DNA of 55,674 nucleotides, taken from IMG/VR virus record IMGVR_UViG_3300020165_002390, positions 1 to 55,674 of that record; one strand, written 5' to 3'. The notes below the pieces were generated by a model, which worked only from the letters and a program-made list of their open reading frames with translations, was not told the origin of the DNA and ran no database searches. Origin of the DNA: a virus. This document shows, piece by piece, positions 26,172-55,574 of this stretch. A program made the position numbers and the translations under genes. Every line of letters begins with the position of its first letter. The first letter of the stretch is position 1.

Positions 26172-26197
26172 ACTTTCTTGCTACTATTATATAATAT
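26169..26197 (+). promoter_or_regulatory. Candidate promoter, leaderless geometry
   Basis: TAGACT (26169-26174) and TAATAT (26192-26197) with 17 bases between; an overlapping TATAAT is at 26190-26195. The predicted start with the 17-base spacing falls on the A of the ATG at 26204. The -35 is identical to the one before the clamp gene. No ribosome site is visible. Confidence 0.45.
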
Positions 26198-26203
26198 AAC
26201 AGT

Positions 26204-26878: not shown

Positions 26879-26886
26879 AGTAAAAT
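26858..26886 (+). promoter_or_regulatory. Sigma70-type promoter, leaderless geometry
   Basis: TTGACT (26858-26863) and TAAAAT (26881-26886), 17 bases apart, overlap the end of the methyltransferase gene. The start predicted 7 bases after the -10 box is the ATG at 26893. The intervening ATACAT contains no ribosome-binding sequence. Confidence 0.6.
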
Positions 26887-26892
26887 ATACAT

Positions 26893-27219
26893 ATGAAGGT
26901 AAAGAAAACAGCAAAGACAACTATTAAGAAAAAACTAAAAAAAGGTTCTAAGAAAAGTGAAGAGCCAATTGTAAAAGTTCTTAATCTAAATGTTAATCCT
27001 GAGAATCCTAGGAATGGTTTCTTTGAGCTAGACTGGAATCCTGAGTTTGTAAATATGTTGAAACAATCTGGATATCAAGGCGAGAGCGAAGAAGAGATTG
27101 TCGACAAGTGGTTCCAAACACTATGTCAGACTATTGGCAACGAGCAAGGCTTAGACGTTAATGCTTCGGGCTATGTAAAGATGACTAGAAGAGATGACGG
27201 AAAAACTGAGGTGTCGTAA
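26893..27219 (+). CDS. Conserved phage hypothetical protein
   Basis: A 108-residue protein with a Lys-rich disordered start (~30 residues) followed by a compact domain containing ENPRNGFFELDWNPEFVNML and ESEEEIVDKWFQTLC. I recall relatives directly upstream of the phage RNase H/exonuclease in T4-like marine phages. The stop overlaps the exonuclease start by one base, so the two are coupled. Confidence 0.7.
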   Translation: MKVKKTAKTTIKKKLKKGSKKSEEPIVKVLNLNVNPENPRNGFFELDWNPEFVNMLKQSGYQGESEEEIVDKWFQTLCQTIGNEQGLDVNASGYVKMTRRDDGKTEVS

Positions 27220-29334: not shown

Positions 29335-29340
29335 GACAGC

Positions 29341-39689: not shown

Positions 39690-40740
39690 GTATAAATTCC
39701 TTTATTCTATCACAAATGTAATCAACTTCCTTTATTTTCAAATGTGGATATATAGGCAAACTCAACGCCATAGCACAAACCTTTTCAGCATTGGGGTATT
39801 GTCCGATATTCATACTGTCTAATGTCTTAGGATAATGTATTTTAGTCTCTATACCGTTTTGTGCAAGAAATGTTTTCAAGTCATCTCGCCTATCGGATAG
39901 AATGACTAACTTGTGATGACTGGATTTTGCGTTGTCTTGCGATTCTATGATAAGACTATCTGGTAATAGTTTTTTATATCGTTTGAATACCTTCTCCCTC
40001 TTCTTCTGCAGTTTATTAAATTTGCTTAACAACAACAGTAATTGGTTTGCATGATCTTCGGATATTAAACTGTTGTACCCATATGGCAAATTGCTGTTCT
40101 GTCCGTGCCTACGTAACGATATCACTGTGTCGTACACATCCTTGCTGTCGGTCAGCACCATACCACCTGCGCCAAAACTAGGCATGTTCTTCATAGGATC
40201 AAAACTGAAAACGCTGACATCTCCTAGAGCACCTGACGGAGTCTTGCCGTGCATCGCTCCCTGTGATTGTGCGGCGTCTTCTATCAATGGTATCTTGTGA
40301 TTATCACAGTATTTTCTTATCCTGGTGTAGTCGGCCGGATTCCCAAACATGTTGACATAGAGAATTGCATTTGGTAGGCCCATTATGCCCCAGTCACCTA
40401 TGTTTCCATTCTCATCCGTGTCAACAAATCGTATGTCTGCACCCAGACGTTTTATCGCACCCGCGGTTGCCACGTAACTAAATGCTGGACACAGTACCGT
40501 ACTACTTTTGTTTAGACCAACTGCCTTCATGGCGAAGTACAGTCCGTCTGTGGCACTGCCCACACCTATGGCATATTTCCGTTTGTATTTTTTTGCAATT
40601 TCTGTTTCCAATTGGTTGAGGTACTTGCCTTGTAGGACGTCTCCAGACTCCCATACTGCTTTGGCTCTTCTTGAAAGTCTCCAACTGTAATCCTTGTAGA
40701 GCCTGTCAACACCATTAAATTTAATTTTGTAGCCAGTCAT
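39679..40740 (-). CDS. DegT/DnrJ/EryC1-type sugar aminotransferase
   Basis: A 353-residue PLP enzyme that adds an amino group to keto-sugars. Diagnostic segments: CPAFSYVATAGAIKRLGADI (~80-99), the ELDAAQ-like IEDAAQSQGAMHG (~153-165), and the PLP-Lys region SVFSFDPMKNMPSFGAGG (~176-193) with Lys184. Length is typical (~370). It overlaps the epimerase gene by 20 bases. Such aminotransferases usually act on nucleotide-linked 3-keto or 4-keto sugars during glycan synthesis. Confidence 0.9.
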   Translation of the reverse strand: MTGYKIKFNGVDRLYKDYSWRLSRRAKAVWESGDVLQGKYLNQLETEIAKKYKRKYAIGVGSATDGLYFAMKAVGLNKSSTVLCPAFSYVATAGAIKRLGADIRFVDTDENGNIGDWGIMGLPNAILYVNMFGNPADYTRIRKYCDNHKIPLIEDAAQSQGAMHGKTPSGALGDVSVFSFDPMKNMPSFGAGGMVLTDSKDVYDTVISLRRHGQNSNLPYGYNSLISEDHANQLLLLLSKFNKLQKKREKVFKRYKKLLPDSLIIESQDNAKSSHHKLVILSDRRDDLKTFLAQNGIETKIHYPKTLDSMNIGQYPNAEKVCAMALSLPIYPHLKIKEVDYICDRIKEFIHVR

Positions 40741-41665
40741 AATAACTTTTTAGTCCTTGATCTAGTGTAAACTGTGGTTCATACTCCAGCAAGTCTTTTG
40801 CCCTACTAATGTCTAGTGTACCACGCATTGGATACAGTTTGTGATTGCCGATGTCCTCTATGTCTGAATCACTACCTGTGATATCTATAATTTTTTCTGC
40901 CAATGTCCTCAGGCTTATGGCGTTGCCGGCCGTTATATTGAAACTGACGTTGGCCACAGATGACAGAGCCGCTAGTATTATACCTCTTGCCGCATCTTGC
41001 CTGTACGTAAAATCAACTTTGTTTTCACCATTGTGTAATGTAATTGTTTTGTTGCTCATTGCTTTCTCGAAAAATTTAGATACTACCCTATCAGGCATAT
41101 CGCCAGGTCCATACACGCCGCTTGGTCTTATGATGTTGTAGTTTAACTCATCTCTCTTTGCAAACAGTTTAACCATACGTTCGCCTGTTAATTTTGCTTC
41201 ACCGTAAATGTTCTTTGGCTTTGTATTTGCATCTTCTTTGGTGCCATCTACAAAATCTCCATAAACCATACTGCTACTAATATAAACAAATTTTTTAATA
41301 TTCCATTTTGACGAGTGCCACAATAAATTAGTGGTTGTGTTGATTACTTTTGGGATTCCAAGAATAGGATCTTCGTCGACTATTTTTGCTCTGGGATAAG
41401 TTGCTAAATGAATCACTATTTCCGGATTGTGTGAAAATGCTTTCAAGCAAACAAGCCTATCCAATATATCTCCTGGTATCATTGACACGTTTTCTAGTTT
41501 CCAATTCCTGGTTCGCCATTCGTAAAGTTTGTATAATTCTTGTTTGGTCATTATGCCATATGTGTCATGATTATCAACTACGGTAACTTTGTGCCCGTCA
41601 TTAGACAACATCTCTACGATCTTCGAACCTATAAAGCCTTTTCCGCCTGTTACTAAAATTTTCAT
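40721..41665 (-). CDS. NAD-dependent nucleotide-sugar epimerase/dehydratase
   Basis: A 314-residue extended SDR. NAD motif VTGGKGFIGSKIVE (~5-18), active site VYISSSMVYGDF (~121-132) and the YGEAK Tyr-Lys pair, then RPSGVYGPGD. The C-terminal LRTLAEKIIDITG fits sugar-nucleotide enzymes. Whether it is an epimerase, dehydratase or reductase cannot be told. Coupled to the DegT-type aminotransferase, a keto-sugar step is likely. Confidence 0.9.
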   Translation of the reverse strand: MKILVTGGKGFIGSKIVEMLSNDGHKVTVVDNHDTYGIMTKQELYKLYEWRTRNWKLENVSMIPGDILDRLVCLKAFSHNPEIVIHLATYPRAKIVDEDPILGIPKVINTTTNLLWHSSKWNIKKFVYISSSMVYGDFVDGTKEDANTKPKNIYGEAKLTGERMVKLFAKRDELNYNIIRPSGVYGPGDMPDRVVSKFFEKAMSNKTITLHNGENKVDFTYRQDAARGIILAALSSVANVSFNITAGNAISLRTLAEKIIDITGSDSDIEDIGNHKLYPMRGTLDISRAKDLLEYEPQFTLDQGLKSYYDWLQN

Positions 41666-41666
41666 A

Positions 41667-42764
41667 TTAATTTGTATAGTAGCCTACTCCGTATTTTTTG
41701 TCAACAACATTCTTACCGCATTTTTGAGAACATTCAACAAATGCATTTTTATTAAAACTATCAAATAAAGTTTGCCATAAGTCATCATTTAAAATTTGTT
41801 CTAAAGATCTGTTGCCCTTTGCGTTTACTAGATGCTTATTCTTAACGAAGAAACTATCCTTCCAATTTATAACTTTTCCGTCATGTTCTAAACTCTTATA
41901 CGGAAAACTTGTCCAACTACACGGAAATATTGTTCCTTCTGCATTCATGTACAACCCTCTGTTTCCTATGAGGCACATAGGCACAATGTCTCCAGTAAAT
42001 TGTTTTTTAATTTCATTAAATTTTTTATAATTTGTTTTCATGTAATTTAATCTTACTGGTATTCTGCCGGATAAATTTTTTATGTGCCGTTCATATCTGT
42101 GCGTCTTGCTGATAAATTTATCGCTTGGCTCCAAAGGATCACTTTCTCCGCCATAAGCATCACCATACTTCGATCCAAATTTGGTGCTATACGTGAGTTG
42201 TAATTGATCACACCCTTGTTTTTGTGCTAATTGTTTTATATGGTCTAACTTCTCTTCGTTGAATTTAAATATTATAGTCGCCCAGTTTACAAAAATCTCA
42301 CTTTCATCAGCACATATTTTCATTCCGGTCATAATACTATCCCAATGATTGTTTACCCTGTATAAATCATTAGACTCTTGATCATAGCCATCTACACTAA
42401 AGTTTATTGAATCGTGCTTGTTAGATACTGCGGCAAAATCCTTCCACCATTTAGCGGTTTTATAACTTCCGTTAGTTATTGTGAATATTTGTATTTTTGG
42501 ATTGTATGATTTTATGTAATCTATTATTGCAACATAGTCTTTAGCATAAATTGGATCACCTACGTCACCACACATTGTAAACCTTTGTGTATATTCAAGA
42601 ATGTTATGGGGGAATACCCTTTTAAATTCTTGTAATGAAATCTCTTTTTGCATCCAACTTATATCTGGATGTTCCTGTCTAGGACATCTTGGACACTTTA
42701 GGCTACACTTTGAACTTGGCTCTATATGCCAATGATACATCTGCCACCCATATCTATTCAACAT
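41667..42764 (-). CDS. Radical SAM protein (SPASM-like C-terminus)
   Basis: A 365-residue enzyme. The cluster motif is SSKCSLKCPRCPR (CxxxCxxC, Cys ~19-26). MCGDVGDPIYA takes the place of the usual GGEP motif, and FSVDGYDQESNDLYRV follows. Near the C-terminus, additional Cys in VPMCLIGNRG, FPCSWTSF and VECSQKCGKNV may bind an auxiliary cluster as in SPASM/twitch proteins. It is separated from the five-gene radical SAM run by five other enzymes. Substrate unknown. It sits between an SDR and the sugar epimerase/aminotransferase pair. Confidence 0.85.
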   Translation of the reverse strand: MLNRYGWQMYHWHIEPSSKCSLKCPRCPRQEHPDISWMQKEISLQEFKRVFPHNILEYTQRFTMCGDVGDPIYAKDYVAIIDYIKSYNPKIQIFTITNGSYKTAKWWKDFAAVSNKHDSINFSVDGYDQESNDLYRVNNHWDSIMTGMKICADESEIFVNWATIIFKFNEEKLDHIKQLAQKQGCDQLQLTYSTKFGSKYGDAYGGESDPLEPSDKFISKTHRYERHIKNLSGRIPVRLNYMKTNYKKFNEIKKQFTGDIVPMCLIGNRGLYMNAEGTIFPCSWTSFPYKSLEHDGKVINWKDSFFVKNKHLVNAKGNRSLEQILNDDLWQTLFDSFNKNAFVECSQKCGKNVVDKKYGVGYYTN

Positions 42765-43260
42765 AAAAATAAATCTCCGGTATGTATAATTTATGTTCTA
42801 AAACAAATCTTACTATACTGACCACGTCGCTTGTGGTCATTTTTTTTCTGCTTTGATTTGCTGTTAATTTTGTATCAGTAACTCCTGGATTAATAAGATA
42901 TGATTTGCATTTGGTTGTTTTCAAATTTACAATATCACAGTGTGCTTTCCTTAAATCTCTTTTGTAATCAACATAGTCTTGATAATTCGAACCTGTAGGC
43001 ATATATGAAGATACTGAACTACCAATTGATATTATTTTCTTTGATTCATCTTTCCATTTGGTAAAGAAAAAATTAAGCAGTTTAGTTTGGCAATCGTTGT
43101 GCCATGCATTGTTTATGAATACTTTGCAATCTTTTAGTTTATTATATACCACTTCTGGGTCATTTATATCTCCATGTGCTCTATCAAATATTACAAAGTT
43201 GTAGGGCATATCCAGTAATGCTTTTCCTATTCCAGAAGTAGTTCCTGTTATACCTATCAT
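42754..43260 (-). CDS. Short-chain dehydrogenase/reductase (short form)
   Basis: A 168-residue protein with the SDR cofactor loop GITGTTSGIGKALL (~3-16), the NNAW variant of the NNAG strand, SIGSSVSSYMP with catalytic Ser and YVDYKRDL with the Tyr-Lys pair, then LINPGVTDT. It is far shorter than typical SDRs (~250) because loops and the C-terminus are trimmed, yet the catalytic residues are all present. Overlaps the radical SAM gene by 11 bases. Presumably reduces or oxidises a sugar or small molecule. Confidence 0.8.
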   Translation of the reverse strand: MIGITGTTSGIGKALLDMPYNFVIFDRAHGDINDPEVVYNKLKDCKVFINNAWHNDCQTKLLNFFFTKWKDESKKIISIGSSVSSYMPTGSNYQDYVDYKRDLRKAHCDIVNLKTTKCKSYLINPGVTDTKLTANQSRKKMTTSDVVSIVRFVLEHKLYIPEIYFYVE

Positions 43261-44726
43261 AACACTTTTACCCCATACTTTGCTGTCCAGTCTTTACCAT
43301 CTTTGGTGTCATTTACCATGGGCATACCCTTGATGTTCAAACTAGTATTCAAAAGTATGGGACAACCTGTCTCTTTCTTCCATGCTTTCAGCAGTTCATA
43401 AAACCCTTCATTGTCGCTTTTTGACACGGTTTGCACCCTAGATGTGCCGTCATAGTGCAATATGGCAGGACAGTCTTTACCATGCGTGTACGCCGCTGTG
43501 TATTGCATATAGGGGGTGTTTTTCACGCCGGTAGGTAGGTCAAAATAGTCGTTTACATCCTCTTCTAGTATGGCTGGAGCAAACGGTCTGAACTTCTGTC
43601 TTTTCTTTATACCATTTACCAGATCCTTGATCTCCTCACCCCTGGGGTCGGCTAATAACGATCTATTACCAAGTGCCCTTGGTCCAAACTCTGCCCTACC
43701 ATTTGCAACTCCCACCATCTTGTTTTCTTTCAATTCTTTAATAATTGCGTCCACAGGATACTCACCTTCTATGTTGTGCCCTAGGAATGGATGTTTCCAA
43801 TTGATGTGTGATTTTTGGTGTGCCGCTATACAACCCAGACTGGATCCTGCATCTCCTGGATTTGGTATGATCCATATGTTGTCAAACAATCCTAAATTTG
43901 CAAGTAACTTGTTGGCCGCACAGTTAAGTGCTACCCCGCCGGCATATACCAAATTACGTGAACCGTACTTGCTGGCCCTGTGCCATAGATCTGCAAGGCA
44001 TTCTTCTGTGACTGCCTGTATGCTGGCCGCTAGGTCCATCGGGTCTGCTTCCGGATGCCATTCACTCAGTCCTCTGTGTAAATTTTTCTTAAGTTTGAAA
44101 GGTGACTGATGCACAAAGTCATTGTATATGTCTTCCTTATATTTGGGTTTGCCGTATGCGGCCATGCCCATTAGGATATATTCTTCTTCCGCAGGTTTCA
44201 ATCCACAACGATGTGTGAATGCTGAATACAATATACCTATGCTGTGTGGATACTTAATTGTTTCTTTTCTTTCTATCCAAATTTTGTCCGCAGTTGATAT
44301 GGAAACAGTATCCCATTCACCTATGGCGTCCACTGTGAGTATTGTTGCTCCTGTGTCCTTGAATGGTGACGTGAAATAACCTGCCGCGGCGTGTGAGTCA
44401 TGGTGTTTCACATACTCATCAATCTTGATGTTGAAGTGATCCAGGTGCCACTGTGGCATCTCTGTGTAACTGAAGGCATCTGCCCATTGTCCTGCGTACA
44501 GTTGCCTTGTTTTCTTAAGCCATGGTTTTTCGTAGTAAACAACTTTATCGAATGGACCATAGGTCATTGCTTCATTCACTATTGCCCAATTCAAGTAATG
44601 ATCATTCTTAACTTTTGAATAACGTTCACTGTGTGCCGCCCACAATATTTCACCTATGCCAGAGCTATAGTCCACAACACTCATGGACGCATCGTGGTTC
44701 ATGCAGTTTATTCCTAGTATCCTCAT
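43257..44726 (-). CDS. NodU/CmcH-type carbamoyltransferase
   Basis: A 489-residue enzyme; the start is the ATG at 44726 in a TAATG overlap with trxB, giving RILGINCMNHDASMSVVD. HHDSHAAAGYF (~110-120) and ILTVDAIGEWDTVSI are the Kae1-like nucleotide site. AEEEYILMGMAAYG and VYAGGVALNCAANKLL, then GRAEFGPRALGNRSLLADPR, are typical of O-carbamoyltransferases. The C-terminal YrdC-like part includes SRVQTVSK and LLNTSLNIKGMPMV. These enzymes add carbamoyl groups to sugar hydroxyls in antibiotics, Nod factors and glycans, so a decorated sugar is likely made by the island. Confidence 0.93.
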   Translation of the reverse strand: MRILGINCMNHDASMSVVDYSSGIGEILWAAHSERYSKVKNDHYLNWAIVNEAMTYGPFDKVVYYEKPWLKKTRQLYAGQWADAFSYTEMPQWHLDHFNIKIDEYVKHHDSHAAAGYFTSPFKDTGATILTVDAIGEWDTVSISTADKIWIERKETIKYPHSIGILYSAFTHRCGLKPAEEEYILMGMAAYGKPKYKEDIYNDFVHQSPFKLKKNLHRGLSEWHPEADPMDLAASIQAVTEECLADLWHRASKYGSRNLVYAGGVALNCAANKLLANLGLFDNIWIIPNPGDAGSSLGCIAAHQKSHINWKHPFLGHNIEGEYPVDAIIKELKENKMVGVANGRAEFGPRALGNRSLLADPRGEEIKDLVNGIKKRQKFRPFAPAILEEDVNDYFDLPTGVKNTPYMQYTAAYTHGKDCPAILHYDGTSRVQTVSKSDNEGFYELLKAWKKETGCPILLNTSLNIKGMPMVNDTKDGKDWTAKYGVKVL

Positions 44727-45673
44727 TAGGATTCCTTTGTGGCTAGATATTTCTCGGCCTCTAGTGCGGCCATACAACCCATTCCTGCGGCCGTGACTGC
44801 CTGCCTGTAAGTTTTATCTTTCACATCACCTGCGGCATACACACCAGGTATATTTGTTTCTGTACTGTCTGGTCTAGTAATGATGTAGTTTTCATCGTCC
44901 ATTTCTATCTGTCCTTTGAAAATTTGTGTTGCTGGGTCATGTCCTATTGCTATAAACACACCATCAACATCTACAGTTGTAGTGCCTAAACCAAAATCAT
45001 CTTTTGTATTTTTTAATTTTACGCCAGTAACATTTAGTGGATCGTCATTTCCGATCACTTCTTCTATTTGGCTATTCCATATAACTTCTACTTTTGGATT
45101 GCTGAACAACCTATCTTGTAATATTTTTTCCGCTCTTAGACTGTCTCTTCTGTGTACAAGGTAAACTTTACTAGCAATATTTGTTAAGTATAATGCTTCT
45201 TCAACAGCACTGTTACCGCCGCCTACCACTAATACTGTTTTGTCTTGGAAAAAGAATCCATCACAAGTAGCACAGGCACTTACACCATAACCGTTAAATT
45301 TCTTTTCACTGTCGATGCCTAACCATCTTGCTTGGGCGCCTGTTGATATAATCACACTGTCTGCCGTGTATGTTTCCCCACTTTCTCCAATTGCCGTGAA
45401 AGGCCTTTGACCGAAGTCCACTGACTTGATCATGTCTGTGATGATATCTGTTCCAACACTCTTTGCTTGTTGTTGCATTTGTTCCATTAACCACGGACCT
45501 TGTATCACATCACCAAATCCTGGATAGTTTTCAACGTCTGTCGTTATCGTCAACTGACCACCTGGTTGTGTGCCTTGCACCATCATTGGCTTCAGCATGG
45601 CCCTCGCTGTGTATATTGCGGCTGTGTATCCTGCGGGTCCTGATCCGATTATCAATACTTTCGAGTGTTTCAT
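44726..45673 (-). CDS. trxB: Thioredoxin reductase
   Basis: A 315-residue flavoprotein with FAD motif VLIIGSGPAGYTAAIYTAR (~6-24), redox-active disulfide CATC in SACATCDGFFF (~136-146), NADPH motif VLVVGGGNSAVEEALYL and the C-terminal FAD contact GVYAAGDVKDKTYRQAV. Length matches bacterial TrxB (~315-320). The start at 45673 overlaps the upstream stop as ATGA. It reduces thioredoxin; in this operon it may reactivate radical SAM partners or serve the phage peroxiredoxin, or support ribonucleotide reduction elsewhere in the genome. Confidence 0.95.
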   Translation of the reverse strand: MKHSKVLIIGSGPAGYTAAIYTARAMLKPMMVQGTQPGGQLTITTDVENYPGFGDVIQGPWLMEQMQQQAKSVGTDIITDMIKSVDFGQRPFTAIGESGETYTADSVIISTGAQARWLGIDSEKKFNGYGVSACATCDGFFFQDKTVLVVGGGNSAVEEALYLTNIASKVYLVHRRDSLRAEKILQDRLFSNPKVEVIWNSQIEEVIGNDDPLNVTGVKLKNTKDDFGLGTTTVDVDGVFIAIGHDPATQIFKGQIEMDDENYIITRPDSTETNIPGVYAAGDVKDKTYRQAVTAAGMGCMAALEAEKYLATKES

Positions 45674-46227
45674 CTTATATTGAACCATCCTTTCGCTCTG
45701 TTTTTTAACACTTCCCATGTTTCCAATTCAATGTCATATTCAAAGTTCTGTGTTGTTAGATGTTTTCCCACCAACTTGGCTCCGTTCTTCAGATGGAACT
45801 TCTCTGCCATTTCTGTTAGAGGTGAGAGTGTGACCAATCTGTTCAAGTGATTGGATTGCTTGATCATCTTGTACACTTCGTTGACCATGTGCTTTCCGCC
45901 ACCTTTCTTCTTGGCCCACACCGTGTAGGCTATTGCCGTTGAACCTTGTACTCCTGCCCTGTTTACTGCCTGCATGGCGGCGTCCCGACTCATGGTATCC
46001 ATCTCCTCCACGCTCTTTGGTATTCCGTGTGTGAAGGCGAAACACATAACAGCCGCTATGTCACCTTCCTCGTCTTTGATCCCAAATATCTTCCTGCCAT
46101 GGGATTGTCTAAACTCTAGGCTTAATTCTGGTCGTACCGGATCTTCCGTGACATCTATGTACGGCAACTCTATCAGTTCGAACTTGGCCTTCTTTTCCAG
46201 TGCCTTTTTAATTTTTGTTAATACCAT
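45670..46227 (-). CDS. GNAT-family acetyltransferase
   Basis: A 185-residue protein. The core pattern is EEGDIAAVMCFAFTHGIP (beta 2-3), then AIAYTVWAKKKGGGKHMVNE with the strand and the basic Gly-rich acetyl-CoA loop, and LSPLTEMAEKFHLKNGAKLV matching the A and B motifs of GNAT enzymes. I recall relatives in T4-like marine phages. Substrate not evident; sugar or protein amines are possible. Confidence 0.75.
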   Translation of the reverse strand: MVLTKIKKALEKKAKFELIELPYIDVTEDPVRPELSLEFRQSHGRKIFGIKDEEGDIAAVMCFAFTHGIPKSVEEMDTMSRDAAMQAVNRAGVQGSTAIAYTVWAKKKGGGKHMVNEVYKMIKQSNHLNRLVTLSPLTEMAEKFHLKNGAKLVGKHLTTQNFEYDIELETWEVLKNRAKGWFNIR

Positions 46228-46228
46228 T

Positions 46229-46333
46229 TTACTTGTATATGAATGGGTCTTTCTTTTTCAGCTCTTTGAGTCTTTTCCTGTACTTCAGTTCTTGTTTGAT
46301 CTTGTCGATCATTTTACGTATCCATGTTAACAT
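46229..46333 (-). CDS. 34-residue basic helical phage peptide
   Basis: A short frame in the only gap of the island. It starts in a TAATG overlap with the SGNH-like gene and stops one base before the acetyltransferase start. Sequence elements are TWIRKMIDKIKQELKYRKR and KKKDPFIYK: an amphipathic, strongly basic helix with no Cys, Ser or Thr core. I recall a nearly identical small protein ending RDPFIYK in many T4-like cyanophages, which supports it as a genuine gene. Function unknown. Confidence 0.65.
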   Translation of the reverse strand: MLTWIRKMIDKIKQELKYRKRLKELKKKDPFIYK

Positions 46334-47127
46334 TATTTGTCTCCTATCAGTTTGTTAAAAGTTGGTAACATTAATTGTACAGCATCCTGGTGTGATTCGT
46401 CAAGTGGATGTGTGGTGGCTCGGGCGTAGTCATTCAGCAGTGCCCATTGGTTGAAACCCATCATGCGTTCTCCAAAAGTGAACCATTTGGTAATGTCTAT
46501 CTCTGAGTGCAGTGCAGTCATCAGATCATCCTTGTCCTTGTGGTGTCGCATGTGATCGTAAAACAGCGTGTTGTCCGCTAGTGTGAAGAAAAATGGTATT
46601 TTCCTCTTCTCCAGTATGTTCTGCAACCATGTGATCGATTTCCAACTGAGATATATCTCATGATACTCGTTGGCGGCATTTTTATAAAGACTGTCTGCGA
46701 AGTCTCGCACTCCTATCTTTGCAGTTTCCTCGGATCTCTTTTGCCAGATCTCTTGCTGTATGTCTGAGTCCGACAATTTAGACATGGCTTCTTCATGCCC
46801 TTTCCTGGTGTCCCAAGGCGATATCGAAACCCAACGACTGCCATCTAACTTCTTGTATTCTGGCATGGCCCAGTCATACCTTGAGGGGAAACTCCACATC
46901 ACTGCGACGGCACCAATGTACTCGTTTGAATTTATTGCCATGAACACACGGCGTGCTATGGCTTGGTTGCCCAATCCACCAGAGGCTGTGCAGACGTATT
47001 CCATTCCTGCGTTCTCGCAAAGGCGGTGTGCCCATGTCTTCGCTGATGGCGTGTTGCCATTGACATCGTCACTGAGTTCGTTCCCGAATGTGAAACTGCA
47101 ACCACCTGCTATGAATTTCTTAGTCAT
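46333..47127 (-). CDS. SGNH-hydrolase-like protein
   Basis: A 264-residue protein. Block I Ser turn is FIAGGCSFTFGNELSDD (~5-21), block II TASGGLGNQAIARRVF (~47-62) with the conserved Gly-Asn, and VAVMWSFPSRYDW. The C-terminal THPLDESHQDAVQL carries the H/D-x-x-H-type ending (HPxxxxH) typical of the DUF6071-like phage group. Probably hydrolyses or binds an ester on a glycan. It overlaps the neighbouring radical SAM gene by 8 bases. Third member of this fold in the window. Confidence 0.65.
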   Translation of the reverse strand: MTKKFIAGGCSFTFGNELSDDVNGNTPSAKTWAHRLCENAGMEYVCTASGGLGNQAIARRVFMAINSNEYIGAVAVMWSFPSRYDWAMPEYKKLDGSRWVSISPWDTRKGHEEAMSKLSDSDIQQEIWQKRSEETAKIGVRDFADSLYKNAANEYHEIYLSWKSITWLQNILEKRKIPFFFTLADNTLFYDHMRHHKDKDDLMTALHSEIDITKWFTFGERMMGFNQWALLNDYARATTHPLDESHQDAVQLMLPTFNKLIGDK

Positions 47128-48301
47128 ATATTTTTAGTATGTTATTTAAAAGTGGAAACACATCTCCGAAATTTTCTTTCCTATACTGATCCGTTTGTAG
47201 TATTCTTCTTTTTCTTTCTGCTCTTATTTCAGGAGAATCCCTGTCAGCGGCATTCATGAATCTTATGCTGGGTTGATAGTCTGTAAGCATGTGGTATCTA
47301 TCTACTACTATGTCTTTGACTTGTTGTGGCAGTGTTTGAATGTTGAACACATCTGGGTCAAAGCAAGTGTTCACATAGAAAAACTTGGGTTGAAACTGTG
47401 CCACCCACAATGCCATCTTGGCCCAGTTGAACACGTTGAATATATTCACTGTCGAACATATTTGAAAATCCATGTTAGGAGTTTTCATTTCTTTAAACTT
47501 GACAAGATTTTGATTTACTTCTCTCCACTTGGCAGGATGTCTTTGATACTCAAAAGGTTCTCCCACATCATCAATACTAAATGCCACTTCCACATGTTTG
47601 AAGCAACTCCATAGGTCAAATATTTCCTGTGGTGGCAACTGTGTGCCATTTGTGTTGTAATGTATATCTATGTCCTTGGCATATCCCTTCTCAACACAGT
47701 GCATCAGTATCTTGAAGTGATCCTTGATCATAAACGGTTCACCGCCTGTGAATTCAAAGTACTCCACATATTTCAGATCCTCCTGCAACTCCTCGAAGAA
47801 CTGTGGGTTACGTTTTGGCCATCCTCCCTCCTTGAGTTGTTTCCTGGCCACAGGATTATCTCCACCCTTGGCCGTCTCATAATCTATTTCTTCCTGAGCC
47901 CATTTTGAGGAACTCCACGATCCACATATCCTACATTTAAGATTACACACGTTGCCCAACTTAAAGTCAATAAACTTCAGCGTTGGCTCGCTGTTAGGTG
48001 TCCAGTTTTCTAAACTGCTACGCATTTTGTAAATTGAATTCTGTCTTTTACTTGTTTTGCCGGCATCTTCTTCTTGCCAACAACTTTGACATCCTTTAGG
48101 ACGCTTACCTTCCCTGAACTTTTTCCTTAGAAGTTCCATGTACTCTGTTTGCTGTATGGATTTTAAACTTTGTTCGTACACTTTGACTCCAGGAATACTA
48201 CCCTTGTACAAACAGCAAGGAGACGCACCGCCATTTACATCAACTTCTAAATGGTTCCACGGTAATGGGCATATGTTTGAATCTATATACTTGTCCACCA
48301 C
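47120..48301 (-). CDS. Radical SAM protein with N-terminal twitch-like Cys domain (1 of 5)
   Basis: A 393-residue protein. N-terminal Cys segments NICPLPWNHLEVD (~10-22), SPCCLYKG (~27-34) and PKGCQSCWQEE (~68-78) form a probable auxiliary cluster domain. The radical SAM cluster is LGNVCNLKCRICGSW (~115-129), followed by FEFTGGEPFM and IHYNTNGT. This arrangement matches twitch-type radical SAM proteins seen in marine phages. It is the last of five consecutive homologues in transcription order. Substrate unknown; peptide, sugar and RNA targets are all known for the superfamily. Confidence 0.88.
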   Translation of the reverse strand: MVDKYIDSNICPLPWNHLEVDVNGGASPCCLYKGSIPGVKVYEQSLKSIQQTEYMELLRKKFREGKRPKGCQSCWQEEDAGKTSKRQNSIYKMRSSLENWTPNSEPTLKFIDFKLGNVCNLKCRICGSWSSSKWAQEEIDYETAKGGDNPVARKQLKEGGWPKRNPQFFEELQEDLKYVEYFEFTGGEPFMIKDHFKILMHCVEKGYAKDIDIHYNTNGTQLPPQEIFDLWSCFKHVEVAFSIDDVGEPFEYQRHPAKWREVNQNLVKFKEMKTPNMDFQICSTVNIFNVFNWAKMALWVAQFQPKFFYVNTCFDPDVFNIQTLPQQVKDIVVDRYHMLTDYQPSIRFMNAADRDSPEIRAERKRRILQTDQYRKENFGDVFPLLNNILKIYD

Positions 48302-49635
48302 TCTAACGCCTTTTTGTTTTTTGCTAATATTTTCTTGATGTCTGTGCCACGTATGCGATCTAATCTTTCAATTTCTGCCTTGCCGTCTTTCTGCCCTTTT
48401 TTGTAAATTTCCTCATCATACACCAGCTCATTGTTTCTCTTCTGTTTCTGCATTTCATCTAACTGTGCAAAGAAATTGTTAAGATTTTTATTTTTATATT
48501 TGATGGTTTTTTCTCTTGCGTCATCGATCATCTCACTCATTATATCATATGGCATGAACAGTGGTGCCATTGCATTGTCCTCGGAGAAGTTGAAAACCTG
48601 TTTGGTCAACAGTTCTATTCCTAGTTCGTTGCTGAGTAAAACCATATTTTCAAGATCGAACAATCCTGGCATGGTTATAGTGAGGTCCAGTTGTATACGC
48701 TGGTAAGGTCCCTGGACGTATTTCAACCCATACCTCATGTTTTCAAGCCATTCGGAATATTTCAACCCTGTCCTGATGTACTCTCCAGTTTCACCTGTCC
48801 CGTCGATAGAAGCACAAATCTGAAATTGTTGGTAGTGTTTCAATATGTCTTCGAATAAATTTTTACCATAAAAGTTGATACGACTCATGTTTGAGTTGTA
48901 CCTGGCCAAGACATTTTCAGCATATCCTAGTTCCTTGATCCTCTCCATTGCCGTCCAATGTATCTTCCACATCAAAGGTTCTCCACCGCACCAGTATATC
49001 TCTGTTATTCTTTTTTCCTCCACTGCCGCCGTAAACTCCTTAACCACTTGCTGGTCATGGAACTTTTCTAATTTTTCCTTTATGTCCTTCCTGCCCCATA
49101 TCCTGTGATCTTTGTACACGTACTCCGGATCGATTTCTCCCAGGCCGTACTTCCTGTTCTCCGCTTCCCATGTGCTACTCAACATGTCACCGCACATCCT
49201 ACAACTGAAATTGCAAAGGTTTGTAAAACGATAGTCAAAACTTTCTACTTTCATTTTCGTTTCACCTGTTTCGTCCGTGCTGGCAAATGCTTCGTCAACT
49301 TTGTGCTTGTACAGATGGTTGAAGTGCTGTCTGTACACCTGCTCGTTAAGCAATTTGTCGTTGCACACGGCACACTGTGGTATCTCCTCACCGGCCAGTA
49401 ATTTTTGTCTCACAGTCTTCATGTATTCTGAATTCCAATGCTGGTCGAGGGTTGTAAGGTTTATTTTGTCATTGTGTCCTTTAGGATCAATTGTGTCTAT
49501 GTACTGTTTGAAGTTTGCCGATGACTCACGTGAACTGCAACACAGTCTTCTTTCCATCTGTGGTGATAGGTATGTGTGCGTCCACGGCGCCATGCAGAAC
49601 GTTTTGTTGCCTTCTGACGGTTTAATCTTCTTCAT
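48283..49635 (-). CDS. Radical SAM protein with N-terminal twitch-like Cys domain (2 of 5)
   Basis: A 450-residue homologue. N-terminal Cys set TFCMAPWTHTYLSPQ (~12-26), RRLCCSSRESS and IPQCAVCNDK; radical SAM motif FTNLCNFSCRMCGDM (~132-146); IYWCGGEPLMW with the GGE motif. The C-terminus is Lys-rich. It is longer in the region after the cluster than the 47120 copy, suggesting a different substrate pocket. Overlaps neighbours by 19 and 14 bases, so all five are translated from one mRNA. Confidence 0.88.
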   Translation of the reverse strand: MKKIKPSEGNKTFCMAPWTHTYLSPQMERRLCCSSRESSANFKQYIDTIDPKGHNDKINLTTLDQHWNSEYMKTVRQKLLAGEEIPQCAVCNDKLLNEQVYRQHFNHLYKHKVDEAFASTDETGETKMKVESFDYRFTNLCNFSCRMCGDMLSSTWEAENRKYGLGEIDPEYVYKDHRIWGRKDIKEKLEKFHDQQVVKEFTAAVEEKRITEIYWCGGEPLMWKIHWTAMERIKELGYAENVLARYNSNMSRINFYGKNLFEDILKHYQQFQICASIDGTGETGEYIRTGLKYSEWLENMRYGLKYVQGPYQRIQLDLTITMPGLFDLENMVLLSNELGIELLTKQVFNFSEDNAMAPLFMPYDIMSEMIDDAREKTIKYKNKNLNNFFAQLDEMQKQKRNNELVYDEEIYKKGQKDGKAEIERLDRIRGTDIKKILAKNKKALEWWTSI

Positions 49636-50905
49636 ACAATTCCTTCAACTCGGGAAAAGTTTCAAGCATGTTTTCGTCACGGAGGTCGTCTAGCCTCTTC
49701 ATCCACGATTTGAATTGGTCTATGTGCTCGTGGTTGTCTCTACGCATCATGTAGTCTATGCCTGACTGGAAGCCTTTGGTCGCCCTTGTCAATGGATCTA
49801 GAGGTGCTAGCCATTCTATGTGCTTTTCGATCTTGTCCTTTACTTTTTGTTTGTATGCCAATGGCGCTAAATCTATCCTCTGTCCAAACGGAGACTGTAA
49901 TAAGTTGAAGTTGAAGTCTTGTGGTTTTAAAAATCCCATGTCAACCCAATTCCTATGGAAGTCTGTGATGTGCCAGGCATTTATAAGTCCTACTGTGGAA
50001 CTGATGTAGAAGTCAACTTCGGGACACACCTCCAACATCCTTTTCCTGTTGGCCACCACATCGTCCCATACCGTTCCTTTCCTCATTAGTTCAGCACGTT
50101 TACCTTCTGCGTCAAGGCTGGCACCTATAGAGACTGTGTCAAATTTTTTCCATAATTCTAGTACATCCATGTCCTTGAATTTTGTCTTAGTGAAATTGGT
50201 GTTGTAGATCAGTCTCACGTGATACATTTTTCTTTTGTCCAGCTCTTTCAATATCCTGTAGTGTTCCTCCATTATCAAAGGTTCTCCGCCTGCGAAATAG
50301 AACTGCTCAACATGATCAAACTGTTCTAACATCTGATCCCATATGTCATTGGAACTTCTTCCGACACGTAATATCTTGGCATGTTTTGGTGGTTCGCCTG
50401 CTAACTTCTTATGGTCCTCATACCAATTTGAACTGAACCATGTGCCGCAACTCCTACAGGCCAAATTACATAGATTGCTGAATCGTATATCCCAGTACTT
50501 GATCACAAAATCTGCACTGCCGTCTTCTTTGGTGTTATCAATCATTCCTATGTTGTGTCCAAAGTGTTTGTTCGAACTCATACGTAAACTGAAAAATCCC
50601 GACTTTTCTTGATCATAACATTTGGTGCAGTTTTTACTGGATTTGTTTGACAACATGTTTTGTCTCAACTGTTTCATGTCCTTGCCATTGAACACAGTTT
50701 CCATGGAATCCTTGTTTAAGTTTCCCACAGGATAATCATCTATTGCGAAGCAACATGGATAGGCCCTGCCGTCTGGAAAAGCGTGGAGATGTAGCCATGG
50801 CATCATACAAAATGTGTCACTGTCGATCAACAACTCACGCTGTCTCTCGGTCATGTCTTTAATCTTTAACTTCTCGGGCTCCTTGGCCCCGTAATCATAT
50901 GCCAC
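49622..50905 (-). CDS. Radical SAM protein with N-terminal twitch-like Cys domain (3 of 5)
   Basis: A 427-residue homologue. N-terminal set TFCMMPWLHLHAFPDGRAYP then CCFAIDDYPVGN, and SKNCTKCYDQE; cluster motif FSNLCNLACRSCGTWFSSNW (~142-161); FYFAGGEPLIM and VRLIYNTNFT. By eye it is closest to the 48283 copy in its opening. The internal SIGASLDAEGKRAELMRKGT matches the substrate-contact helix common to the group. Overlaps the next gene by 11 bases. Confidence 0.88.
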   Translation of the reverse strand: MAYDYGAKEPEKLKIKDMTERQRELLIDSDTFCMMPWLHLHAFPDGRAYPCCFAIDDYPVGNLNKDSMETVFNGKDMKQLRQNMLSNKSSKNCTKCYDQEKSGFFSLRMSSNKHFGHNIGMIDNTKEDGSADFVIKYWDIRFSNLCNLACRSCGTWFSSNWYEDHKKLAGEPPKHAKILRVGRSSNDIWDQMLEQFDHVEQFYFAGGEPLIMEEHYRILKELDKRKMYHVRLIYNTNFTKTKFKDMDVLELWKKFDTVSIGASLDAEGKRAELMRKGTVWDDVVANRKRMLEVCPEVDFYISSTVGLINAWHITDFHRNWVDMGFLKPQDFNFNLLQSPFGQRIDLAPLAYKQKVKDKIEKHIEWLAPLDPLTRATKGFQSGIDYMMRRDNHEHIDQFKSWMKRLDDLRDENMLETFPELKELYEED

Positions 50906-52238
50906 GGTACCATTCTCCTATTATTGGGAAAGTCTTTTCAAATTCTTTTCCTGATCGTTTGTCATATTGACTGTAGAATGCCTTGAAGTCTTTTTGTAGT
51001 TTACTCTGTTCGGCCGCACCTGCATGTGGTGTTTTGACAACATCCAAGTAGTCGATAAGTCTTTGTGTTTGATTAATTTCCATGTGTTCTAAATGTTTTT
51101 CGTTAGTATTTAAAAACTTTACCAAGTCCAGTTTAAATTTATTTCTTAAATCATCCGGTAGCACAAGCGGTGATTGGAAACTCGGAAACCTCAATATGTT
51201 CAGTGTAAAGTTAACTTCTGGTCCGTACACCTTGCCTGCACTCTTGAACCAAACCATTTTCTCTAAAAACTCAGGTAATGACTCTAGACATAGTGCGTTA
51301 ATTGTACACATATTGTGGAGGGCACGTGGAACCTTATCCACCATCATGTGCAAGAAGTTGGAATGCCAATCTCCATAAACTAGTCCGTCTCTGATGTATT
51401 CTGCTTGTCCAAATGTTGCTTCACAACTAGTATACAATTCGAAGTTATCAAACTTCTTTAATTTTGTTTTGAATCTATCAATGATGCTCTGCTTTGCACC
51501 TAGGTTAGAGTTTATTGCGAGGGTCATGTTGGGATTCATTTTATCTCCCTGTGTTTCTATCCAATCTAGTAGTCTCCATAAATTAGGTGACATCATAGGT
51601 TCTCCGCCTGTTATCCTCAGTTCATCTAGGCTCTTGTGTAGGTCTGTTTCCCACCATTTGTAGAATGCTTCCACGTATGGATTGGTCTCATCTTTCTTGT
51701 ACGGCTCTGCACTTTCATGGCTGTGTGTGAAATGATTCCTGCCATCTGTTTTCATATCGGTGTATGGTCCTTGCCTCTTGATGTTGTTTGCCCAAGTGGA
51801 ACTGAATGCAGGATTACAATACGTACAAGCAAAGTTACAGGTTCTGTCAAATGCTATTTCTAGTGTTTTCAAGTCTACGTCTTCCTTGTGATCTAGGTTA
51901 TATGCTGTGTCTAGATCTTCATCTGTGAATATTTGTGATTTATACACCCTATCACTTATGTTGTCTCTGTTGATGTCTTCAATCTTCCAACAGTACTCGC
52001 ATCCTGCAGGCCTCTCTCCGCACTGCATCTGCCTACGCTGTTCTTTTTTCTCAGGTGTGTTGTGTAGCAGTTTCGGATTTGATTGCACAGCGATTGGATC
52101 AATCTTGTGCGGAAGCGGATGGTGACAACTTGTGGTCATCCCACTGCCCAGCCATATAGTCGCATTGTACCATTTGGCCCCACAGAAACTTGCAGATTTG
52201 GTGTCTAGTATTTTTTTCTTGTATTCTAAATCATTCAT
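50895..52238 (-). CDS. Radical SAM protein with N-terminal twitch-like Cys domain (4 of 5)
   Basis: A 447-residue homologue; I use the ATG at 52238 in an ATGA overlap instead of one at 52250. N-terminal set SFCGAKWYNATIWLGSG, TTSCHHPLPHKI and PAGCEYCWKIED; cluster motif FDRTCNFACTYCNPAFSSTW (~132-151); LRITGGEPMMS. The CHHP form of the second Cys segment and the CNPAFSSTW motif pair it with the 52235 copy. The two therefore form a subfamily distinct from the other three. Confidence 0.88.
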   Translation of the reverse strand: MNDLEYKKKILDTKSASFCGAKWYNATIWLGSGMTTSCHHPLPHKIDPIAVQSNPKLLHNTPEKKEQRRQMQCGERPAGCEYCWKIEDINRDNISDRVYKSQIFTDEDLDTAYNLDHKEDVDLKTLEIAFDRTCNFACTYCNPAFSSTWANNIKRQGPYTDMKTDGRNHFTHSHESAEPYKKDETNPYVEAFYKWWETDLHKSLDELRITGGEPMMSPNLWRLLDWIETQGDKMNPNMTLAINSNLGAKQSIIDRFKTKLKKFDNFELYTSCEATFGQAEYIRDGLVYGDWHSNFLHMMVDKVPRALHNMCTINALCLESLPEFLEKMVWFKSAGKVYGPEVNFTLNILRFPSFQSPLVLPDDLRNKFKLDLVKFLNTNEKHLEHMEINQTQRLIDYLDVVKTPHAGAAEQSKLQKDFKAFYSQYDKRSGKEFEKTFPIIGEWYRGI

Positions 52239-53605
52239 ACGTTTCTGCACTCCTCCCAGAACTCTTCCATCTCAGGAAAGGTGTTCAAGAACCTTGTGAG
52301 ACGTCTGCGGTCGTGTTCGTTGAAGAAAGCGTAAAAGTTTTTTTTATTTTGCGTACTTGCGTCAGCGTTTTCGCGCCAGTATGCGAGATTACGTTGCATC
52401 TTCTGGATCTCGAAATCGTTGAACTTGCTGTACCCTCTGTCGTTCCCACAATGCTTCTGCATGTATTCTATGTTTTCCTCATGTATTATTTGGTAGGATT
52501 CCGGGAGCAGTGTGATCTGTTGCCATGTGGGTTGCCTCAGCAGTGGCACGTCAAACCATATACGTTGGTATGTGGTGCTGTACTTGGCACGCAGTTCCAG
52601 TATCTTTTCAAGTAATTGGTCCATGCTGGTTATACTGAGATTGTTGTATGTGCATATGAACGTTATGGAATTCCTCCCTGGTATACGCTCCAGGAACTCC
52701 TCCACGTTGTCCATCATGTAGTTGAAATCCAATCCGTTCCTGATGTACTCCGCACGTTTGCCCCATGCATCCACGCTCACGAACTGCATCATGTGTTCCA
52801 CCTTGTCCTGCATACATATCTCCTGTGCCATGTTGAAGTATTTCTCCTTCAGTTTCTTGTCCGGGGGACACATGTTGCTGGTCACGTTCAGGTGTAGGTC
52901 CTGTTTGGGGTTGTCAATTATGTACTGGAACACCTTGTATGTGTTCACATCCATCATGGGTTCCCCTCCCGTCATACGGAAGTGTTTTAGATTCTTGTAC
53001 AGCGTTGGCCACCATCTCCAGAACGCTTCAACGTATGGATTATCTTCACGATTTGTTAAAGGCCTGTTCTCTCCTTGGAAGTGTTCCGGCATGTTGTGGG
53101 GTGGTGACGTTGGATATTCTCCATAACGATCGACTTCCTTGCCCCACGTGGTGGAGAACTGTGGTGAGCAGTAACTACACTTGAAATTGCAGGCGTTGTT
53201 GAAGTTGACCTCAACGTACCTCGGAGTCCACTTGTCGTCCAGTGGTTTTTTCATGATGTCATCGAAGTCCTGCATGGCCCATGGTTCGCCCGACCTGTAG
53301 TGCCTGTCACTCATCTCTCCAGTCTTCTCTATGTTCCAGCAGTAGGAACACCCTTCTGGCTTCTTGCCCTCCAGCATCTCCTTCCTCTGTTGCAGTTTAT
53401 CAGTGGTGTTGTGCAGGCTCGCGGGGTTGTAGTTGAGCTTGTCTGGGCTGATCTTGTGCAGTGGAGGATGATAGCAACTGTTTGTCTTGCCCGTGGGCAG
53501 GTGCAGTGAGGTCTGGTTCCACTTGGCCAGGCACATGGTGGGAGACACGGTCTCTAATTTCTCTCTGGCCTTGTCTGCGTCTGACTTGTAATCACTGGTA
53601 CTCAC
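52235..53605 (-). CDS. Radical SAM protein with N-terminal twitch-like Cys domain (5 of 5)
   Basis: A 456-residue homologue and first of the run in transcription order. N-terminal set TMCLAKWNQTSLHLPTGKT, NSCYHPPLHKI and PEGCSYCWNIEK; cluster motif FNNACNFKCSYCSPQFSTTW (~136-155); FRMTGGEPMMD. CYHP and CSPQFSTTW make it the sister of the 50895 copy. It overlaps the glycosyltransferase-like gene upstream by 14 bases, linking the radical SAM run to sugar transfer. Confidence 0.88.
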   Translation of the reverse strand: MSTSDYKSDADKAREKLETVSPTMCLAKWNQTSLHLPTGKTNSCYHPPLHKISPDKLNYNPASLHNTTDKLQQRKEMLEGKKPEGCSYCWNIEKTGEMSDRHYRSGEPWAMQDFDDIMKKPLDDKWTPRYVEVNFNNACNFKCSYCSPQFSTTWGKEVDRYGEYPTSPPHNMPEHFQGENRPLTNREDNPYVEAFWRWWPTLYKNLKHFRMTGGEPMMDVNTYKVFQYIIDNPKQDLHLNVTSNMCPPDKKLKEKYFNMAQEICMQDKVEHMMQFVSVDAWGKRAEYIRNGLDFNYMMDNVEEFLERIPGRNSITFICTYNNLSITSMDQLLEKILELRAKYSTTYQRIWFDVPLLRQPTWQQITLLPESYQIIHEENIEYMQKHCGNDRGYSKFNDFEIQKMQRNLAYWRENADASTQNKKNFYAFFNEHDRRRLTRFLNTFPEMEEFWEECRNV

Positions 53606-54494
53606 GGTCTTGCACTCCTTTGTTCCTGTGCTCCGGCAACGTGAACTTGAAGAACTTGCTGTCCTCTGGTGTGAAGTCTGCTATTGGTATGTCCAACCTC
53701 TGTTTGATGCTCTCACCATACATCCGTATCTCGTCGTCCATGTTGTTGGCGTCTATTTTGTTGAAGAACATTTCTCTCATGCCTCCTATGTCACTGATGT
53801 CACTTTGTTCATTGGAGTTGCCCAGCACAGTGTGATACAGTCCCATCCTGGCGCCCAGCATGGCGTATTTGCCATTCTCTACATCGGCCCCCACTGTCAT
53901 CCAGGTGCTCAGCACACGCAGGTTCTCAGGCCACACATTCTTGTTGAAGTCGTTGGCCGGTATGGGTTTGCCTTTGTCCAATCCCATTTTCACGCCCTCC
54001 CTGTATCCGGCAGTGAATGCCTGGTCCTTTTCCGCATTGATCACTGTGGTCGAATAACAGTTGTGTAGATTTTCATGTGGTACACCCCAACAGAAGTCTA
54101 ATCTGTTCTCCTCGGTGTCTGCGTTTTCGTGTGTACGCATGTTGAGGCAAGTCTGTTTTGGCCATCCTACCAACCCGCCGTTTCCGTACACCAGTCCATT
54201 CACATTGTTTTTAGCACGCCACCTGTGGACAGCGTCAGGATTGGTCTTGCTCCAATCCAAAGTCTCTAGTAGGAATTTCTCATTTATGATGTTGTCTCCG
54301 TCCACACTGATAAAGAAATCAGTTTCCGCTAGTTCCGCCGCGGCCTTGTGTGCAGAATCGAATCCAACTACCCCATCGACACGCTTGGCCCATGGCACCT
54401 TGTTTTTTAGATCTGCCCAATTCAGTTCCTTGTTGGGTTCTTTGAAACTTATGTAAACGAAATCTAGATCGCTTACTCGTACTCGAGCAACCAT
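53592..54494 (-). CDS. Putative GT-A-like phage glycosyltransferase
   Basis: A 300-residue protein; the chosen ATG at 54494 gives a start VARVRVSDLDFVYISFKEP. Nucleotide-sugar-domain features: FVYISFKEPNKELNW, VPWAKRVDGVVGFDSAHKAA and TDFFISVDGDNII with a DxD metal motif (D-G-D). Lower down, KNNVNGLVYGNGGLVGWPKQ could be the acceptor loop. It shares this domain with the protein at 38394-39689 at the opposite end of the island. Overlaps the upstream gene by 22 bases. Confidence 0.7.
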   Translation of the reverse strand: MVARVRVSDLDFVYISFKEPNKELNWADLKNKVPWAKRVDGVVGFDSAHKAAAELAETDFFISVDGDNIINEKFLLETLDWSKTNPDAVHRWRAKNNVNGLVYGNGGLVGWPKQTCLNMRTHENADTEENRLDFCWGVPHENLHNCYSTTVINAEKDQAFTAGYREGVKMGLDKGKPIPANDFNKNVWPENLRVLSTWMTVGADVENGKYAMLGARMGLYHTVLGNSNEQSDISDIGGMREMFFNKIDANNMDDEIRMYGESIKQRLDIPIADFTPEDSKFFKFTLPEHRNKGVQDREYQ

Positions 54495-54796
54495 GCTTTT
54501 CCTCCATCTACGATCCCAATTGGCCAATGTATGTCCCCGTCCAAGAACACGTAACCTTTGTGTGGTGTTGATATCAACTGAGAATACTGTGTCTTTGCCT
54601 TGGGTTTTATTTGATCTTTTTCAACTATGTCTGTTTTGCCATCCACGTTGGACAGCGTGTAGTATTGCTCGCCTCTCCTCATTATTTCCAATTTCTTGTC
54701 AAGAGGCACTTCTATCTGTTTGCCGTCTATGTTTACAAAGTGTCTCTTGGGAGGTCGAACCTTGAAATCCTTTAGTGCTTTAAAAATCTCTGACAT
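54473..54796 (-). CDS. Hypothetical protein in the glycan island
   Basis: A 107-residue protein; the ATG at 54796 overlaps the end of the glycosyltransferase gene. It begins SEIFKALKDFKVRPPKRHFV and ends in a beta-rich stretch with TPHKGYVFLDGDIHWPIGIV. The frame extends upstream, but that part would lie inside the neighbouring gene. No family recognised. Confidence 0.65.
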   Translation of the reverse strand: MSEIFKALKDFKVRPPKRHFVNIDGKQIEVPLDKKLEIMRRGEQYYTLSNVDGKTDIVEKDQIKPKAKTQYSQLISTPHKGYVFLDGDIHWPIGIVDGGKAWLLEYE

Positions 54797-55574
54797 TAAT
54801 CTCCTTGTCGAAGTAGTGCCATGGCCTGGACACACGACGTTCTCCTAGGTAATATGCATCTCCTGACTTGTTGGGGAACAGGAAGTTGTTTTGATCTTTG
54901 ACCCAGTCTAGATTATTTACACCAGGCTTATGATGAAGGAACTTGAACCATTCGTAGTCTATGAGATGTTGATTGGTTGGATCTAAAATCCTATATGCCA
55001 GGGCGAACACCACATCCGTGCTAGGATAAGTGTCGTGGCAATTGATCAACATGTGCTCCTTGACTTCATTCCACTTGTAAGTTATCTGTTCTGCCAATTC
55101 AAAAAATTTCTTAGATCTTTCTGATTTACGGAAGTACATCAGTCCATTGTATATGTTGGGTAGATGATTTCTTTTGAACAAGTTCCTGTACGGTGTCTCC
55201 TTGACCACTTGATCCTTGTAGTTCCTGCAATCAACACTGAACACCAGATCGTGTTGCCATAGGTGGTACCACCACCAGTCCGTGTTGGCCGTCCACAGCA
55301 TGTCCGCTTCTAGTTTGATCGTGTACTCGAAAGGAGTCCACCAACATGCCTTGTGCTCGTTGGCCCATTTTATTTTGTGTTCCGAGGCATCATCCTCCTC
55401 CAACACCTGTACCACGTCTACCGCTTCGTGTTCAAATTTACTTTTCTCATCAGTGATCACGCACACACTGTTCTCACGATTCCATTTCTTTATGGACTTG
55501 GCCAATCTTATGGACAGTTCGACGTAGTCTGTTGTGTCATTGTTCTGGGCGAACCACAGGAATCCCTTAGACAT
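54780..55574 (-). CDS. Glycosyltransferase-like protein (GT-A, GT8-like)
   Basis: A 264-residue protein. SKGFLWFAQNNDTTDYVELS is a GT-A-like first strand and helix. ENSVCVITDEKSKF follows, and YTIKLEADMLWTANTDWWWY (~84-103) has a Glu-Ala-Asp in place of the DxD metal motif next to an acidic strand. A YNGLMYFRKSERSKKFFELA segment is typical of GT8-like acceptors. It is the first complete gene of the island in transcription order and overlaps the partial upstream gene by 8 bases. Confidence 0.7.
   Translation of the reverse strand: MSKGFLWFAQNNDTTDYVELSIRLAKSIKKWNRENSVCVITDEKSKFEHEAVDVVQVLEEDDASEHKIKWANEHKACWWTPFEYTIKLEADMLWTANTDWWWYHLWQHDLVFSVDCRNYKDQVVKETPYRNLFKRNHLPNIYNGLMYFRKSERSKKFFELAEQITYKWNEVKEHMLINCHDTYPSTDVVFALAYRILDPTNQHLIDYEWFKFLHHKPGVNNLDWVKDQNNFLFPNKSGDAYYLGERRVSRPWHYFDKEINVRDF

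Follow-up and report, generated by a model that had tools for sequence, protein, structure and literature searches.

Five consecutive radical SAM enzymes with an N-terminal twitch-type domain form a putative multi-step modification line in T4-like phages

The virus record IMGVR_UViG_3300020165_002390 of IMG/VR was analysed over its whole length of 55,674 bases (the window), in which a T4-type DNA polymerase is encoded. Positions 47120-53605 of the minus strand hold five overlapping open reading frames (ORFs), named E, D, C, B and A in the order in which they are read, and each encodes a radical S-adenosylmethionine (SAM) protein. The five are distinct orthologous subfamilies with a conserved order in phage loci, and their arrangement as a multi-step modification line is, judged from sequence comparison, well supported. 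A first-pass annotation of the window had proposed such a line acting on a sugar, lipid or peptide carrier; of these, a sugar-type setting is supported by the linked sugar-tailoring genes, which do not amount to proof. The reading we favour, tentatively and at somewhat less than even confidence, is that A-E would be five separate working enzymes for successive steps of one pathway, most likely directed at the surface glycan of the host. Radical SAM enzymes carry out chemistry that is hard to achieve otherwise, and a conserved run of five in a virus is unusual.

All five proteins matched the NCBIfam family NF033640 (N_Twi_rSAM) with 291-412 bits (E-values 1e-86 to 2e-123; curated cut-off 170 bits) and covered the profile nearly whole, from position 1 or 2 to position 396-398 of 398. 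The exact positions given for the five genes in the first-pass annotation were reproduced. Orthologues were counted in the 112 IMG/VR loci with at least four such radical SAM genes; since the presence of such genes was the criterion for choosing them, the numbers characterise the set and say nothing about how frequent it is among all phages. E is the first radical SAM gene after the glycosyltransferase-like gene f4 (52235..53605, 456 amino acids (AA), CYHP type, NF033640 E-value 2.1e-97) and has an orthologue in 109 loci, the cluster cysteines being kept in 109/109. D (50895..52250, 451 AA, CHHP type, 1.1e-86) is present in 111 loci with the cysteines in 111/111. C (49622..50905, 427 AA, 2e-123) was found in all 112 loci, B (48283..49635, 450 AA, 3.2e-92) in 107 and A (47120..48301, 393 AA, 1.1e-109) in 106. 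The annotation had named as a refutation that relatives never keep more than one of these genes; the complete set of five is present in 98 of the 112 loci.

The proteins are only distantly related to each other: the other members of the set in the window share 22-29% identity with C, the gene in the middle. Their cysteines are nevertheless conserved throughout. In the 102-111 orthologues available per gene, the CxxxCxxC radical SAM motif is intact in 100% and every cluster cysteine of A-E is invariant; each subfamily has at least four further invariant cysteines at the N-terminus. Thus, the three-part N-terminal cysteine domain and the motif noticed before are shared by all five. A SPASM match above the Pfam cut-off was obtained at the N-terminus of A and C, and the N-terminal domain of A-E is, by its sequence, of the twitch type and a putative binder of an auxiliary cluster. 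The second cysteine of the CC pair is missing in D and E, which are also grouped by a starred branch of the tree described below; the division into two sub-types made by eye, D and E versus A, B and C, is borne out. Compared to the near relative L087, amino acid identity is 84-94%, and the ratio of non-synonymous to synonymous substitutions (dN/dS) is 0.02-0.05 for C, D and E, for which it was computable, with synonymous sites being saturated. Both values indicate strong purifying selection on the genes.

Viral contigs were scanned with an alignment of the five proteins, which gave at least 578 relatives among 600 stretches; the more specific scans yielded 57 loci with C and 69 loci with E as query. 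Among the matches listed, 130 distinct groups remained after removal of duplicates. The order E-D-C-B-A was found in 41/130 groups and E-D-C-A-B in 29/130, the rest being cut or having extra copies. Among the uncultured T4-like phages known from metagenomes, this set is common. The five types separate in a tree computed from 100 proteins of 18 diverse loci: B and D each form one side of a branch (support 100 and 99, respectively), and E, C and A are separate save for long-branch strays. In a larger tree, each of the five clades also includes bacterial homologues; on one Bacteriovoracaceae contig (L211), proteins of all five are encoded in a single cluster beside an Obg GTPase gene. Bacterial members in all five clades suggest that the five-way split is probably older than these phages. 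Several fusions were observed, namely long C+A frames in L067, L038 and L037, an SGNH-like domain joined to D in L110, A-like+B, and an uncharacterised domain+E. A fusion to a glycosyltransferase, which was considered as a direct clue to the substrate, was rejected since the fusions found are of these four kinds.

Some loci deviate in copy number or origin. One phage contig of 117 kb (G070, locus L349) contains 22 radical SAM matches, and several other contigs contain 9-14. An Elusimicrobia metagenome-assembled genome (MAG; G053, loci L210 and L213) has at least 64 family matches, many of them C-like domains, in tandem and fused to long TPR-like arrays. Six loci with the cassette or a variant of it (L202-L206, L227) are binned in bacterial MAGs of GTDB (Pelagibacter, Verrucomicrobia, Rickettsiales, Flavobacterium and others); they were set aside as misbinned phage contigs and not counted as bacterial loci. 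Among 50,697 deposited phage records (INPHARED), a tblastn search with E, f4, f6 and f7 gave no match, which implies that the set escaped laboratory study. For C, only matches of 26% identity were obtained, to the Vibrio phages K566 and K567 and one marine fragment. Vibrio phage K566 (L240) has three adjoining genes annotated as radical SAM which are distantly C-like, and a fourth 12 kb away. This phage could serve as a cultured model of a shorter set.

In a reverse test, searches were started from the neighbouring genes f7 and f4. The genes f7 and f10 and the operon promoter lie past the edge of the window and were read in relatives. The loci share a constant block, in which the fibre genes f11 and f9 are followed by f10, f7, f6 and f4 and then by zero to seven radical SAM genes of the family. 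Thus, the radical SAM genes are appended in graded number to a block that itself stays constant. For the 52 loci in which f4 is followed by at least 8 kb of sequence, E was present in 37, D in 21 and B in 18. D always occurs together with E (21/21 loci) and B always with D and E (18/18), whereas C and A are sometimes present without E. These 52 loci were ranked by likeness to the query, kinship was ignored and a quick tree served to assign the divergent genes; large inserts may also move genes past the flank, as in L255, the contig of which has seven matches. The graded series, from no gene via E and E+D to the full set, provides a natural experiment for the order of steps. Of the leading genes, f11 is of fibre type, with weak matches to chaperone (Peptidase_G2), virion-structural and tail-fibre families, and f10 is conserved over its whole length and belongs to no recognised family.

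Almost all genes from f7 through A and f12/f13 overlap their predecessor (median -4 to -26 bases), and the gap before f10 has a median of 50 bases. In this gap, a σ70-like promoter with at least 9 of 12 consensus bases was found in 83% of 83 loci compared to 20% of random stretches; for at least 10 of 12 bases the values are 60% and 3%, respectively. The spacing is 17 in 62/69 promoters, and the -10 box lies 6 bases ahead of the next ATG in 47/69, so that the message may be leaderless in the clade of the window. Divergent phages have the same promoter, often as perfect TTGACA-17-TATAAT, followed by a ribosome-site-like AGGAG. A terminator-like hairpin precedes f10 in 18/83 loci versus 1/444 random stretches. 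The T4-like late motif ATAAATA occurs well above expectation before the fibre genes f11 and f9, although the motif of f9 sits within the end of f11, so that shared coding sequence may contribute; ahead of the cassette genes, a scan for the late motif found none. The signals favour the block from f10 on being an early, separately controlled operon, with the fibre genes probably late. The -10 box of the promoter before f10 is overlapped by an inverted repeat, e.g. AACTGTATAATACAGTT, in the manner of an operator (L007 4270-4325, L187 6960-6990 and similar cases).

Conserved order, purifying selection, the dependence of D and B, the C+A and A-like+B fusions and the single overlapping operon all agree with the multi-step line proposed earlier. 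In the pathway we propose, the glycosyltransferase-like proteins f7, f6 and f4 would build or transfer a sugar. E would act first and D next, with C, B and A carrying out later steps. By means of a 5'-deoxyadenosyl radical, each enzyme could catalyse the oxidation, dehydration, epimerisation or cross-linking of the sugar or of its carrier, and products of the linked accessory genes may add carbamoyl, amino and acyl groups. The host's surface glycan would thereby be remodelled in the course of infection, for instance blocking superinfection or the rebinding of progeny. A bolder version, which we consider doubtful, describes an ordered radical assembly line old enough to be found in predatory-type bacteria and T4-like phages, which would convert a glycan built by the phage, step by step, to a radical-modified sugar of a kind not seen so far and whose length would be tuned by gain and loss of enzymes.

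The neighbouring genes were assigned by Pfam, by conserved residues and partly by eye; all of those described here are on the minus strand. Directly upstream of E, f4 (53592..54527) encodes a probable GT-A glycosyltransferase present in 106/112 loci with invariant D76/D78 in the sequence VDGDN; its Pfam support is a weak GT2 match (E-value 0.05) on a relative. The probable GT8-like glycosyltransferase f6 (54780..55574) occurs in 100/112 loci and matches Nucleotid_trans with an E-value of 0.003. It aligns to f7, which is GT8-like as well, in hhalign with a probability of 99 and an E-value of 7.6e-18; both proteins have a DxD-type motif at the expected place, and f6 aligns with the DAD motif of glycogenin, this alignment not being significant alone. 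For the two glycosyltransferases named in the first-pass annotation (53592 and 54780), the assignment is based on weak Pfam matches together with conserved DxD motifs. Between f6 and f4, a small conserved protein is encoded by f16 (54473..54835; 42 loci), whose place is taken by f15 in the other clade.

Downstream of A, f13 (46333..47127) encodes a candidate SGNH-like hydrolase or acyltransferase (56 loci), which is related to the SGNH-like domain of the D fusion in L110. The gene at 45670 had been called an acetyltransferase by eye. The Pfam scan gave no match for either gene, so that these two assignments remain visual ones. The other neighbours claimed before were recovered by Pfam: f8 (43257..44777) is a NodU/TobZ-type carbamoyltransferase (PF02543, 6.5e-42; PF16861, 7.6e-53; 89/112 loci), and the accessory genes include an NAD-dependent sugar epimerase/dehydratase (40721..41665; PF01370, 9.3e-42; 35 loci) and a DegT/StrS sugar aminotransferase (39679..40740; PF01041, 2e-69; 27 loci). 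The gene at 41667..42764, which had been counted as a sixth paralogue, is a radical SAM gene (PF04055, 3.6e-10, with a weak C-terminal SPASM match) of a different type. Since its family is present in 5/112 loci only, it was rejected as part of the line. Likewise, a thioredoxin-reductase-like flavoprotein (44726..45718; PF07992, 7.7e-57; CATC motif by eye) was rejected as a dedicated reductant because it occurs in 4 loci only.

Relatives with E only carry a DegT aminotransferase and two further radical SAM genes, or a gene of the tryptophan-halogenase type. Such a halogenase-type gene lies near an E-only locus at L339:12889-14385 (PF04820, 3.5e-71). An A-type Fe-S carrier was detected in 12/37 contigs tested and an IscU-like gene in 4/37, mostly in the longest ones (G016, G018, G021, G022 and others). 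In the window itself, region 22456-30492 contains long ORFs (at 22456, 23885, 28201 and 29341) without PHROG match though the phage is T4-like.

Several other readings were weighed against a host-glycan pathway. The glycosyltransferases and radical SAM enzymes might build a glycan on the fibre proteins of the phage itself and modify it, and the fixed place of the block directly after f11 and f9 in almost all loci, together with the weak chaperone, virion-structural and tail-fibre matches of f11, speaks for this decoration of the virion. The operon, however, has its own σ70-like promoter, sometimes with a terminator ahead, and the fibre genes have late motifs. An early-type promoter separate from late fibre genes makes the host surface glycan the likelier target, and we regard modification of the virion as rather unlikely. 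Alternatively, the five enzymes could alter side chains or the backbone of a fibre, of f10 or of a host protein, similar to SPASM/twitch maturases. The confident AlphaFold2 model of C (pLDDT 89.6) matches radical SAM folds, and its best Foldseek hits are the sactipeptide maturase CteB and anSME; the weak model of E gives matches of a similar type, with SkfB second, and TPR-like arrays such as those of the Elusimicrobia homologues are usual in protein binding. On the other side, no precursor-like peptide was recognised among the conserved neighbours, and f10 was rejected as such a precursor because it is conserved over its full length and has no core that is repetitive or rich in Cys. The accessory genes linked to the set are of sugar type, and the auxiliary domain is N-terminal in A-E, not a C-terminal SPASM domain as in peptide maturases. 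Peptide or protein chemistry is accordingly held to be unlikely.

A small diffusible molecule, an aminoglycoside- or nucleoside-like compound acting on the host or on competitors, appears improbable. The carbamoyltransferase, the StrS-type aminotransferase and the gene f24, amidinotransferase-like by eye, would suit it, as would the weak similarity of the N-terminal domain of C to the twitch domain of the aminocyclitol dehydrogenase BtrN (E-value 0.006) and the best match of the weak E model, BlsE. Yet the linkage to three glycosyltransferase-like genes and fibres is constant, and no transporter or resistance gene was recognised among the conserved neighbours. DNA glycosyltransferases are used by T4-like phages and radical SAM steps occur in thymidine hypermodification, which could point to glycosylated or radical-modified DNA bases. 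PF00303 (thymidylate synthase/hydroxymethylase) is absent in 17/20 contigs tested, including the window and several of more than 200 kb, and the set is linked to fibre genes; we hold DNA modification to be very improbable. Some points weigh against the favoured pathway on the host glycan as well. No NF033640 member here has a known substrate or reaction, the glycosyltransferase calls are weak when taken alone, and the best structural matches of C modify peptides or proteins and are not sugar enzymes. The promoter lies outside the window and was taken from relatives, the nearest of which, L180, is below the 9-of-12 threshold; moreover, proteins made early could still act on later fibres, so that the target does not follow from the promoter. 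Neither sequence nor fold comparison singles out a substrate: the twitch domain of C resembles that of BtrN, and its fold is closest to CteB and anSME. The separate early-type promoter does lead to a testable prediction on when and on what the enzymes act.

Compared to known systems, A-E match NF033640 over the full length and far above the cut-off, and this family is also bacterial; the entry covers single proteins of unassigned function, whereas the phages have five fixed subfamilies in an ordered operon. BtrN, anSME and CteB likewise combine a radical SAM core with an auxiliary cluster domain of twitch/SPASM type, but carry it C-terminally, and identity to them is very low. The first-pass annotation had considered the run as not described, which appears to hold for the ordered set and has to be restricted for its parts: the family is curated, and radical SAM content of phages has been reported. 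The T4-like marine phage TARA_ERS488813_N000010 has 12 radical SAM genes and an Fe-S carrier (PMC5332604), which were discussed there among the Fe-S-related genes and not in terms of families, order or pathway. According to a study on the host recognition clusters (HRC) of pelagimyophages and cyanomyophages, radical SAM cassettes are the main difference between two pelagimyophage HRCs, and the phage glycosyltransferases in the HRC were suggested to alter the host O-chain (PMC7029224). As in the hypervariable HRC of these T4-like phages, fibres and glycosyltransferases are found in one island here, the fibre genes f11 and f9 being located in relatives and the glycosyltransferases being only probable. 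Unlike in the present loci, the five-enzyme set, its order, its dependence pattern and the promoter do not appear in the radical SAM passages of that paper. Nor were the ordered set, the dependence pattern and the promoter found described in the literature covered, which leaves out most subscription papers and preprints. Taken together, the parts come from known families, and the five-enzyme set and its job look undescribed.

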